64,000 nucleotides of DNA, taken from assembly GCA_015061295.1 (NCBI GenBank), contig SUWU01000007.1:1-64000 (forward strand). The letters run 5' to 3'. A program made the position numbers and the translations under genes. Shown here piece by piece: positions 8,407-16,123 of the stretch; position 1 is the first letter of the stretch, and each line of letters starts with the position of its first letter. The notes under the pieces are model-generated. The model searched no databases and had not been told where the DNA came from. It worked only from the letters and a program-made list of their open reading frames with translations. The DNA comes from Lentimicrobiaceae bacterium (lineage in GTDB: Bacteria; Bacteroidota; Bacteroidia; Bacteroidales; F082).

Positions 8407-10827
8407 TTAAATCCCGATAATCACGCTGAACATGAAGTTGATTCCCGCTTGGGAGAAATATCCATCTTCAATATATTCTTCCCCGCCAACAGCAGCCTTA
8501 TAAACCCAGGCATTACTACAATACTTACTGTTAAAAATGTTATTGACACTCAGATTGAAATTCAGGTCTTTAAACAGAGTCTGCTTCCATTCATAATTAA
8601 TATTAACATTACTTACGAAATATGGGTCGAGACTCCTTGAAAGGGTAGAGGTGTTGTCGATATATTGTCGTCCGACATATTTCTCCTGAAAGACGATGTC
8701 TAAATGATTGATAGGCGTGACTTTAAAATTAAAGCCTCCGATGATGTTGGGAGAAAAAGAGATGTCCGTCGTTCCTAAATTATTTTCTATCTGTCCTAAA
8801 TAATTCCAGTCGGCATCGTAATTATCGACGTAATCGACATAATTCAGAATCTTATTCTGACTTAAAGCAAAATTGAAGTCCAAGGCGAAATACCTGTTGA
8901 ACTGAAACGCTGCGCTACCTTCCAAACCTAATCTGTAACTTTTATCAACATTTGTCATGATGGTGTTTCCCACATTGTTAATCTCGCCTGTCATCACAAG
9001 CTGGTCTTTATAATCCATGTAGAAAATGTTGGTGTTCAATGCCATTTTTCTGTTTCTGTATGAGTATCCTAATTCATAGTCGGTGAGTTTCTCGTGAGTG
9101 ACGCGTTCTCTTTGAATCTCATCGGCGTCGGTGTAGATGTCGCGGTTTGGTTCTCTGTTGGAATAGGCGACGGAGAAATACGCGCTGTTGTTGTCGTTGA
9201 TGGAATAGAATATACCGCCCTTAGGATTCCAGAAGTTGAAAAGATGTTGTTGTGTCACGTCATTAAGGTCGTCGTGGATGCCCTCGATGGAATAATTGAT
9301 ATGACGATATTGCATCTCAGCGAATAGGTTAAGATGTCCGTTTAACTCGTAATTCGCTGATATAAAGGCATTGTAATATTGTTTGTTACCATTGTTTTCG
9401 TACCATCTGTAATTTAAAGGCACGCCGTATTCAGCCCAATTTATGATGCCGAAATGATCACCATCGTAACGATTCCAGCTGCCTCCGTAGTTGAGGTCGA
9501 ATCTCCCGATTTTATGATTCATGGCGATGTTGAAGCCGTAGTATTTGTTGTCTAACCATTTCTGCTGTATGAGGTTGACGCTTTCGATGACAGTGTCGCC
9601 TATTACGAAAGAAGGAAGTCCGTAACTTGAAAATGACTTGTCGTTTTTATAATTCTCGTAGTAACCTTTTCCTGTGGTGAGAAATGCCGAAGCTGTCAAT
9701 GTCATATTCTGTGAGAAGCTGTGAGCATAATGTATTTGGTAATAAGATTGGTCGTATTTGTCGATTTCGTTTTCATAATAGCCTATGAAGTTGCCGTCTT
9801 TGTCGTACATCATTCCTGAAGGGTTGAAGGTAGGATTTGTGGCGAGGCTGTCTTTCGGTGTGCCGTTCCAAGCCTGATATGTCTCTTCTTTGCCGTTCAT
9901 TATCATGAATTTAAGGAAGTCGTTTTCGTCTGACCATGAAGCTGAGAGCTGATAAGAGAACAAGTCGGAATAAGCTCTGTCGATGTAGCCGTCGGAATTG
10001 ATTTTACTTATTCTTCCGTTGAAGTTAAATCCGTTATTGTTTCTTCCTGATGAGAAGTTGATAGTGTTTTTCAGTGTGTTGAAAGAACCGAATGTGGAGC
10101 TCAGTCTCGCGAAAGGCTCTGTTGTCTGTTCATCTGTTTTTATGTTGATGGAAGCTCCGAATGCTGCTGCGCCGTTGCTTGAATTACCGACGCCTCTCTG
10201 TATCTGTATGTTATCTACTGACGATGCCAAATCCGGTAAGTCGACGAAATAGACTAAGTTAGATTCCGCGTCGTTGACGGGTATTCCGTTCAGTGTGACG
10301 TTGATTCTTGTGAGGTCGCTGCCTCTGATTCTCATTCCCGTATAGCCTACACCCGCACCTGCATCGGAGGTGACGACGACAGAAGGTGTGTTTTGTAATA
10401 AGAAAGGAAGGTCAGAGCCTTGGTTGCTACGTCTAAGTTCCTCAGAATCAATCTCGGAGTAGGTGAGGGGAGTCTTGTCTCCAACACGCGATGCGGTGAC
10501 TATAACCTCGTCTTCCATCAGCACTTCCATCGTCATCGCAATATTTATCTTCGTGTCTTTAGTAACCTTAACATCAGTAGAATAGGTCTTGAAACCTAGA
10601 TATGTAGCTTTTAAAGTATATGTTCCCTTTTTTATATTTTCAAATTTGAAATTACCGTTGTTATCTGTGACAGTGATGAGATTTAATTCTTTCAAAGAAA
10701 CGTGTGCGCCGATTAACACTTCATGATTTTCCTTGTCTATGACGTTACCAGAGATGGTGAATTGTGCGAGAAGATTTAAAGGCATTAGCACTGCTATGAT
10801 GATAATTGATGTAATTTGTTTTAACAT
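8407..10827 (-). CDS. TonB-dependent outer membrane receptor, predicted thiamine uptake
   Basis: An 806-residue receptor with signal peptide (cleaved after LLAQ), a carboxypeptidase-like regulatory domain (about 23-98), a TonB-box-like DEVIVTASR near 106, a plug (about 115-230; MRIRGSD, LNGIPVNDAE, IQRGVGNSSNGAAAFG) and a beta barrel to the C-terminus. No SusD partner follows it, so it is a BtuB-type rather than a SusC-type receptor. A TPP riboswitch lies directly in its leader (10888-10987). TPP-controlled receptors of this kind in Bacteroidetes are predicted to import thiamine or its precursors, so the substrate is inferred from regulation and not from the protein. The chain ends in Ile, not the usual aromatic residue. 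Confidence 0.9.
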   Translation of the reverse strand: MLKQITSIIIIAVLMPLNLLAQFTISGNVIDKENHEVLIGAHVSLKELNLITVTDNNGNFKFENIKKGTYTLKATYLGFKTYSTDVKVTKDTKINIAMTMEVLMEDEVIVTASRVGDKTPLTYSEIDSEELRRSNQGSDLPFLLQNTPSVVVTSDAGAGVGYTGMRIRGSDLTRINVTLNGIPVNDAESNLVYFVDLPDLASSVDNIQIQRGVGNSSNGAAAFGASINIKTDEQTTEPFARLSSTFGSFNTLKNTINFSSGRNNNGFNFNGRISKINSDGYIDRAYSDLFSYQLSASWSDENDFLKFMIMNGKEETYQAWNGTPKDSLATNPTFNPSGMMYDKDGNFIGYYENEIDKYDQSYYQIHYAHSFSQNMTLTASAFLTTGKGYYENYKNDKSFSSYGLPSFVIGDTVIESVNLIQQKWLDNKYYGFNIAMNHKIGRFDLNYGGSWNRYDGDHFGIINWAEYGVPLNYRWYENNGNKQYYNAFISANYELNGHLNLFAEMQYRHINYSIEGIHDDLNDVTQQHLFNFWNPKGGIFYSINDNNSAYFSVAYSNREPNRDIYTDADEIQRERVTHEKLTDYELGYSYRNRKMALNTNIFYMDYKDQLVMTGEINNVGNTIMTNVDKSYRLGLEGSAAFQFNRYFALDFNFALSQNKILNYVDYVDNYDADWNYLGQIENNLGTTDISFSPNIIGGFNFKVTPINHLDIVFQEKYVGRQYIDNTSTLSRSLDPYFVSNVNINYEWKQTLFKDLNFNLSVNNIFNSKYCSNAWVYKAAVGGEEYIEDGYFSQAGINFMFSVIIGI

Positions 10828-10832
10828 AATGC

Positions 10833-10868
10833 ATTGATTTAATTGTTGTTAAATTTAATTAAATCAAT
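10833..10868 (-). promoter_or_regulatory. Hairpin next to the start codon, likely expression platform of the TPP riboswitch
   Basis: Perfect 12-base complementary arms (10833-10844 and 10857-10868) enclose a 12-base loop, and the stem ends 5 bases before the ATG at 10827. Forming it would bury the ribosome entry region. Its upstream arm shares 10864-10868 with a segment complementary to the 5' end of the riboswitch. Confidence 0.65.
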
Positions 10869-10887
10869 AGGAGGAATTTTTGATGTG

Positions 10888-10987
10888 TCTCATTTCCCTG
10901 TCTCGGCATTATCCGTATCAGGTTCAGAGGGTGTGATCTCAGCCTGTCTTTCATTTTACTTTTGTAAAAAAGGCACCCCTATTGAAA
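10888..10987 (-). ncRNA. TPP riboswitch (THI element)
   Basis: Read on the minus strand, the conserved parts occur in order: GGGGTGCC (10979-10972), GGCTGAGATC, ACACCC, then CTGAACCTGAT, GGATAATGCC and AGGGAAATGAG. P1 can form between TTTCA (10987-10983) and TGAGA (10892-10888). An AT-rich P3 extension lies between the two. Promoter, aptamer, switch hairpin and TonB-receptor start follow in that order, so the element controls that gene. High TPP should lower expression. Confidence 0.93.
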
Positions 10988-10990
10988 GTC

Positions 10991-11022
10991 TTGCAAAGTT
11001 ATCATAATTTTCTTTATGTTTG
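10991..11022 (+). promoter_or_regulatory. Promoter of aroQ
   Basis: TTG (10991-10993) and TATGTTTG (11015-11022) are separated by 21 bases. The ATG inside the -7 box (11016) is in frame with aroQ but cannot be the start of a transcript from this promoter. Expected transcription start is near 11028. Confidence 0.6.
10994..11001 (-). promoter_or_regulatory. -7 box for the TPP-riboswitch transcript
   Basis: TAACTTTG on the minus strand fits TAnnTTTG. The expected transcript start, 5 to 8 bases on, falls at about 10987, exactly the first base of the P1 stem. The box overlaps the -33 region of the opposite aroQ promoter. Confidence 0.6.
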
Positions 11023-11039
11023 TAAAAAAAATATTAACG

Positions 11040-11483
11040 ATGAAGATATTGATTTTAAACGGACCGAATTTAAATCTCATAGGTAGAAGAGAAGCAGAGA
11101 TTTATGGAACTGAGTCATTGGTCGATTATATAGAGAAGATGAAATTGGATTTTGTTGAACATCAGATAGATTATTTTCAATCTAATCATGAAGGTGTCTT
11201 GATTGATAAGTTACATGAGGCTTGGGATAATTATGACGGTGTCGTTTTCAATCCAGGAGCTTATTGTCACACTTCCATTGCCTTAGCTGACGCGATACGT
11301 TCTATAGAAACACCTGTCGTTGAAGTGCATATCAGCGACATTTATTCGCGCGAGGAATACAGACGTCATTCGTTTACGGCGGAAGCAAGTGTTAAGAGTG
11401 TCGTCGGTAAAGGCTTGAACGGATATAGGGAAGCAGTAGCGTTTTTGATTGATAGTTTTTTACGAGAAATCTCTTTCGTCTAA
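11040..11483 (+). CDS. aroQ: Type II 3-dehydroquinate dehydratase
   Basis: A 147-residue enzyme of the usual size for the dodecameric type II family. It carries out the third step of the shikimate pathway, 3-dehydroquinate to 3-dehydroshikimate, in the cytoplasm. The N-terminus KILILNGPNLNLIGRRE is the family signature, Tyr22 in IYG is the catalytic Tyr, NPGAYCHTSIAL lies near 73, and EVHISDIYSREEYRRHSF carries the catalytic His near 97. The start at 11040 is chosen because translation from there begins at the conserved N-terminus and the earlier ATG lies within the -7 box. Its last 24 bases overlap the convergent glycosyltransferase gene. Confidence 0.95.
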   Translation: MKILILNGPNLNLIGRREAEIYGTESLVDYIEKMKLDFVEHQIDYFQSNHEGVLIDKLHEAWDNYDGVVFNPGAYCHTSIALADAIRSIETPVVEVHISDIYSREEYRRHSFTAEASVKSVVGKGLNGYREAVAFLIDSFLREISFV

Positions 11484-15882: not shown

Positions 15883-15967
15883 GGAGAAATGGCAGAGCGG
15901 TCGAATGCGGCGGTCTTGAAAACCGTTGTACAGCAATGTACCGGGGGTTCGAATCCCTCTTTCTCCG
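15883..15967 (+). tRNA. tRNA-Ser (anticodon TGA)
   Basis: Acceptor GGAGAAA pairs with TTTCTCC. The anticodon loop reads CTTGAAA with TGA, the variable arm is long as expected for serine, and the T arm carries GGTTCGAATCC. The CCA end is not encoded. Confidence 0.95.
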
Positions 15968-16036: not shown

Positions 16037-16123
16037 GGAGAAATGCCAGAGTGGTCGAATGGGGCGGTCTCGAAAACCGTTGATCGTATCCACGATCCAA
16101 GGGTTCGAATCCCTTTTTCTCCG
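16037..16123 (+). tRNA. tRNA-Ser (anticodon CGA)
   Basis: Acceptor GGAGAAA/TTTCTCC, anticodon loop CTCGAAA with CGA, long variable arm, T arm GGTTCGAATCC; CCA is not encoded. It is identical to the upstream tRNA in the acceptor and differs mainly in the anticodon and variable arm, consistent with a local duplication. Confidence 0.95.

Follow-up and report, generated by a model that had tools for sequence, protein, structure and literature searches.

A TPP riboswitch leader with three competing strands, upstream of a putative thiamine receptor gene of a Lentimicrobiaceae bacterium, and its probable mode of control without a Shine-Dalgarno sequence

Results

A TPP aptamer precedes a gene for a TonB-dependent receptor

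The window analyzed here is a stretch of 64,000 nt of the genome of a Lentimicrobiaceae bacterium (assembly GCA_015061295.1, contig SUWU01000007.1, positions 1-64,000). The leader under study is on the minus strand, where, from 11001 down to 10820, a promoter box, an aptamer, a 50-base platform and an ATG follow each other. The aptamer (THI element, 10878-10990) matches the TPP family RF00059 with 58.8 bits, the gathering score being 54.3, and it has the same sensor domain as this family, although its P1 is weak, with an A.A mismatch. Directly 5' of the aptamer the box TAACTTTG (10994-11001) is found, which is of the TAnnTTTG type, being the -7 consensus of the Bacteroidota as quoted in PMC7366714. 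The ATG (10827-10825) is the start of an open reading frame (8407-10827, minus strand) coding for a TonB-dependent outer membrane receptor of 806 residues, in which the CarbopepD_reg_2, Plug and TonB_dep_Rec_b-barrel domains are detected above their cut-offs; none of the NCBIfam models reaches its cut-off with this sequence. The riboswitch upstream suggests that the substrate is thiamine, and this putative thiamine receptor may be OMthi-like, OMthi being a TonB receptor of Bacteroides (PMC5613172).

The leader is the single RF00059 match found in the genome to which the window belongs (93.7% complete). The ThiC family is absent from the search of this one genome (0/1, at 93.7% completeness), and therefore the host likely depends on thiamine uptake. 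The only PnuC-family match of the genome (L265, G000:C48) is a reading frame that overlaps at its end with the beginning of a second one, which we take to be NadR-like. Because of this neighbor, the PnuC-family gene is not called a thiamine transporter, and the substrate of its protein may be nicotinamide riboside instead. The closest relatives among the matches listed are metagenome-assembled genomes titled Bacteroidales or Lentimicrobiaceae bacterium, several of which are named for gut samples of grazing animals, and the best receptors among the relatives listed are 94% identical, in a listing that may omit records of the window's own genome. Elsewhere in the window there are two adjacent tRNA genes (15883-15967 and 16037-16123), which differ in sequence and whose variable arms are both long when aligned to the Rfam model.

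Three pairings of the leader share bases

In the initial annotation, P1 of the aptamer was drawn between TTTCA (10987-10983) and TGAGA (10892-10888). These letters and positions are correct, one of the pairs being a G.U pair; the P1 of Rfam is formed by 10985-10981 and 10890-10894, contains the A.A mismatch and leaves the two outermost pairs of the earlier assignment outside. Also the start-hiding hairpin agrees with its earlier description: ATTGATTTAATT (10868-10857) and AATTAAATCAAT (10844-10833, referred to as strand c) form a perfect helix of 12 bp, with the ATG five bases later. A 13th pair, U10869.G10832, extends the hairpin to 10832-10869, and the hairpin covers positions -17 to -6 relative to the AUG. 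The third pairing, between TCAATAGG (10985-10978) and CCTATTGA (10871-10864), is present as described but was taken too short: it continues via G10977.U10872 and G10976-C10873, such that strand a (10985-10976), which in the aptamer is the 5' side of P1 and P2, is paired with strand b (10873-10864) over ten pairs, including one G.U, with a duplex energy of -14.0 kcal/mol. Strand b is the proposed 'anti' segment, which would pair with strand a in the ON state or, via its 3' half, with strand c in the OFF state.

The third pairing was said to exclude both P1 and the hairpin. It does share bases with both, and additionally it occupies the 5' strand of P2 (10980-10977, of which the partner is 10928-10931 in the Rfam alignment); with P2 broken too, the switch should be stronger than one acting on P1 alone. 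At the hairpin side, however, only 5 of the 12 pairs (10868-10864) are affected and the top 7 pairs could still form alongside the third pairing, so the hairpin has to open at its base only. Judged from the sequence and its comparison, the aptamer and the start region are linked by mutually exclusive pairings.

The energy of the third pairing is reached in 0/200 dinucleotide shuffles of the platform, the self-fold of the platform (-8.4 kcal/mol) in 1/200, and the formation of both pairings via one common segment in 0/100 and 0/200 shuffles in two runs. Hairpins are easily found in an A+T-rich leader like this one, yet it is very improbable that the complementarity is a matter of chance in view of these shuffles (0/200, 1/200 and 0/100), its recurrence in 36/38 of the window-like (class-1) leaders and the joint change of the strands across families.

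The two states are predicted to have similar energies

It had been proposed to fold the leader with and without P1. When the third pairing is forced, the predicted energy is -32.4 kcal/mol, which is also the unconstrained minimum free energy (MFE); forcing the full aptamer, including P1, gives -25.5 kcal/mol, with formation of the hairpin, and forcing only P2, P3 and P5 gives -30.8 kcal/mol. At positions -10 to -7 the predicted unpaired probability is 0.73-0.94 when the third pairing is forced and 0.14-0.19 when the aptamer is, whereas the AUG itself is predicted to be nearly equally accessible in both states. In the unconstrained ensemble the -10 to -7 positions are mostly closed (unpaired probability 0.23-0.46), and therefore folding by itself, at the level of these predictions, does not place the ligand-free RNA in the ON state.

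In predictions for 35 distinct leaders of class 1, the anti state is at a median of 0.2 kcal/mol below the aptamer-locked state, being the lower of the two in 21/35, and at a median of 3.5 kcal/mol above the free MFE, with 9/35 leaders within 1 kcal/mol of it. These values concern the core helices; an earlier version in which every predicted duplex pair was forced (median difference between anti state and free MFE of 4.0) was replaced. In these models neither state clearly outweighs the other, a balance that a switch requires.

The architecture recurs within the genus

An RF00059 match is present in 82/99 genomes of the genus, at 93 places, from which 92 leaders were fetched (the partial place G021:C12 was left out). 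L010, which is at a contig end, L035, of which the start is distant, and L123 were excluded and 89 leaders were classified: class 1 (38, window-like), class 2 (38, other receptors), thiD (8) and thiM (5). The genes of the classes were named from motifs of the N-termini, and Pfam was used to check ten of them, by which 6/6 receptors have the Plug domain, 2/2 thiD proteins fit Phos_pyr_kin and 2/2 thiM proteins fit HK. The architecture seen in the window is common to 38 of the 92 TPP leaders fetched from the genus.

The promoter box recurs as TANNTTTG in 89/89 genus leaders (classes 1-4), compared with 6/123 background windows, when searching from 40 bases upstream of the aptamer to 6 bases inside it, and it is found in 82/95 leaders from other families and named relatives. 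It begins 8 to 15 bases 5' of the aptamer in 88 genus leaders and 34 bases in the remaining one. With the box positioned just 5' of the aptamer, transcripts would begin close to strand a, nearly at the 5' strand of P1.

Within class 1, the hairpin core TTGATTTA/TAAATCAA is identical in 36/38 leaders, the exceptions being L116, which has a mismatch, and L120, in which a pair is U.G. The upper part of the hairpin shows modest covariation, with 12 cells changed on both sides, a value as high being obtained in 6/500 shuffles; the covariation score of the hairpin is 0.057, compared with a higher 0.084 when the arms are slid by +3, and dealing whole arms anew among the class-1 leaders gives 12/1000. 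P1, as named in the initial annotation, is paired in 58.8% of the cells (34 distinct class-1 rows), and sliding it by +1 and +2 gives 12 and 18 cells changed on both sides, compared with 9 for the unslid pairing. For the third pairing, 0 cells are changed on both sides in class 1, which is no better than in shuffles; covariation carries little information within the genus because the strands hardly vary.

A three-way score was calculated in which one 12-base segment must suit the start zone as well as the aptamer strand. It is reached by at most 5/100 shuffles in 36/38 class-1 and in 8/8 thiD leaders, compared with 4/38 class-2 and 0/5 thiM leaders. Because the thiD platform is built from letters unrelated to those of class 1, it is to be read as a separate instance of the three-strand design. 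In the thiD leaders (L126-L133) the 3' arm of the hairpin (..AGTGGT) reaches the ATG in 7/8 cases, the exception being L127.

The three strands change together in other families

The order, which is Bacteroidales by the titles of the named relatives, was sampled with 101 leaders from other families (41 + 60), mostly those with the higher-scoring aptamers among the matches listed rather than a random sample. Five of these (L157, L158, L167, L175 and L184) were dropped by hand and more by the distance to the start, leaving 90; in addition, 20/71 loci of the named relatives were scanned, of which 13 have an aptamer and 10 were scored. Start codons are those of the longest reading frame, some being shifted by hand to an inner Met. 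Scores of single leaders are weak outside the genus. In an earlier scoring of 35 of the first 41 leaders, 13 were at or below 5/100 shuffles; in the full set, p<=0.05 is obtained for 28/90 leaders, compared with 19/90 when the aptamer strand is reversed, and for the named relatives the numbers are 2/10 and 2/10. As the reversed-aptamer control is raised too, these scores were set aside in favor of a comparison of own and foreign partners.

For this comparison, eight loci with doubtful or missing starts were removed and identical rows were merged, giving 96 distinct leaders, of which 95 come from outside the genus set and one is that of the window. When strand b is chosen by its fit to the aptamer alone, it fits its own start zone better (-6.24) than foreign start zones (-4.34), a difference reached in 0/5000 permutations. 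Conversely, when the 5' arm is chosen by its fit to the start zone, it fits its own aptamer strand (-8.98) better than foreign ones (-7.26), again with 0/5000. Shuffled own start zones (n=95) give 0/200, and own aptamer strands of which the variable part is shuffled (n=94) give 0/300; therefore base composition is not the explanation. The same shuffle tests are passed by class 1 and thiD (0/200 and 0/300). The covariation that had been asked for is thus absent for the third pairing within the genus but clear over the 96 distinct leaders. Nevertheless, only in 36/96 and 40/96 leaders of the two tests does the own partner rank among the best tenth, which indicates that the design is common, but either not universal or not always recognizable.

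It could be argued that the hairpin is a constitutive element, serving mRNA stability or low expression, and that the third pairing is a by-product of the fixed letters of strand b. This would agree with the nearly invariant hairpin core and with the lack of covariation of the third pairing in the genus, but it does not account for the arm selected by the start zone preferring its own aptamer strand outside the genus (0/5000 foreign, 0/300 shuffled), and we regard it as improbable.

The replacement of the letters is visible in individual leaders, with b and c being CCCUAUCGGUUUU and AAAACCGAU in L003, CCCUAUUGGUUUU and AAAACCAAU in L147, CCCUGAUGUU and AACAUCA in both L143 and L154, CCCCAUUGCUUUU and AAAAGCAAU in L149, and CCCCUGUUUAUUUG and AAAUAAACAG in L056. 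In L024, ACCUCAU is paired with AUGAGGU and the hidden strand contains the start codon. A stem directly before the AUG is seen in L204 and L259 (UUCU/AGAA) and in L209 and L212 (GGCUGU/AUAGCC).

Class-2 and thiM leaders do not pass the tests of this design

The shuffle tests are not passed by class 2 (own start zones 138/200, aptamer strand 100/300, with 35 and 30 distinct leaders, respectively) nor by thiM (193/200 and 295/300, with 5 and 4 leaders). The 38 class-2 leaders (for example L004, L006, L008, L009 and L012) have a nearly fixed CCCCTTCACATTT, of which CCCCTTTGCATTT is a near form in L090, L091, L093 and L096. Its CCCCTT is complementary to the AAGGGG of P2, and the start hairpin is without support. 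A weak hairpin over the AUG (CUU..CAUUU/AAAUG..AAG) can be drawn in this class, but it was rejected, as only 4/38 leaders pass the three-way score and the class does not pass the shuffle tests. In the thiM leaders (L014, L044, L046, L050 and L051) the 5' strand of the aptamer pairs over about 14 bp with a downstream GGATGCTTCTTTGA (TGGATGC.. in L050). This long a-b pairing is reached by at most 1/200 shuffles in 4/5 leaders and by 4/200 in the fifth; a three-strand design was not assigned to these leaders, the three-way score being reached by 7 to 24/100 shuffles and the OFF partner having no support.

Discussion

The TPP riboswitch described here probably represses the translation of the TonB receptor mRNA, with strand b having two partners and with no Shine-Dalgarno sequence being involved. 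In the absence of TPP, strand b (10873-10864) would pair with strand a (10985-10976), taking apart the base of the aptamer (P1 and P2), and the strand beside the start codon would be freed, allowing ribosomes to load. When TPP is bound, P1 and P2 would be held and strand b released, which would then close the hairpin with strand c (10844-10833), covering positions -17 to -6, a region that the ribosomes of Bacteroidota, initiating without a Shine-Dalgarno sequence, presumably need open. The two-state reading that was made from the window alone is supported by the comparison across families. The pairings, their excess over chance and their joint change across families are properties of the sequences, and the near-equal energies of the two states are predictions from them, whereas the binding of TPP, the direction of the switch and the control of translation rather than of the mRNA level are what we infer.

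By eye, the hidden strand, being AATTAAATCAAT and the GCATT that leads to the ATG, has no purine-rich Shine-Dalgarno sequence. According to PMC6847099, Bacteroidetes mRNAs lack this sequence, and what tunes their initiation is structure together with A at -3 and -6. Because initiation would depend on structure near the start in this way, a helix over -17 to -6 is a natural OFF state, which TPP would bring about.

Control at the level of transcription, with TPP triggering early termination in the leader, has also to be considered. Both levels of control are available to TPP riboswitches, and in B. thetaiotaomicron the transcripts of the biosynthesis operon, though not those of the two transport operons, were lowered by thiamine (PMC5613172). 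However, 0 terminator-like sites are found in 10600-11200 (0.1 per shuffle on average), and no platform of the terminator type, a G+C-rich hairpin followed by a T run, was found in this range. Also the start-hiding hairpin itself argues against termination: it is rich in A+T, no run of T follows it, and 5 bases separate its end from the ATG. Early termination is thus unlikely, with the proviso that for Rho-dependent termination in the leader the sequence cannot decide.

The E. coli thiM TPP riboswitch is similar in that one of its segments is contested by the aptamer strand and the start region. It hides a Shine-Dalgarno sequence, whereas the present leader hides an A+T-rich stretch before the AUG. 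Within the phylum, the closest comparison is with the TPP riboswitches of Bacteroides, which have the same ligand and the same kind of gene. By its title, the preprint of Costliow, Degnan and Vanderpool (bioRxiv 2019, 867226), cited in PMC7366714 and PMC10294740, describes control by TPP in Bacteroides that is exerted on transcription or translation. In the literature covered, which did not extend to subscription papers and preprints, a description of start hiding without a Shine-Dalgarno sequence in such leaders was not found. The design, kept by relatives with other letters, is real but mostly of the expected kind: the aptamer family is known and TPP control in Bacteroides has been reported, and it is the hiding of a start region lacking a Shine-Dalgarno sequence that may be new.

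How TPP riboswitches work in Bacteroidetes was called uncertain in 2017 (PMC5613172). With natural variants from many families in which the strands match, the three-strand model opens the mechanism to a direct test. Whether TPP leaders of the Bacteroidales commonly keep this three-strand hiding of a start without a Shine-Dalgarno sequence, with lineages having rewritten all three strands together, is in our judgment evenly balanced. If true, it would answer in general terms how translation is brought under riboswitch control when ribosomes do not rely on a Shine-Dalgarno sequence.
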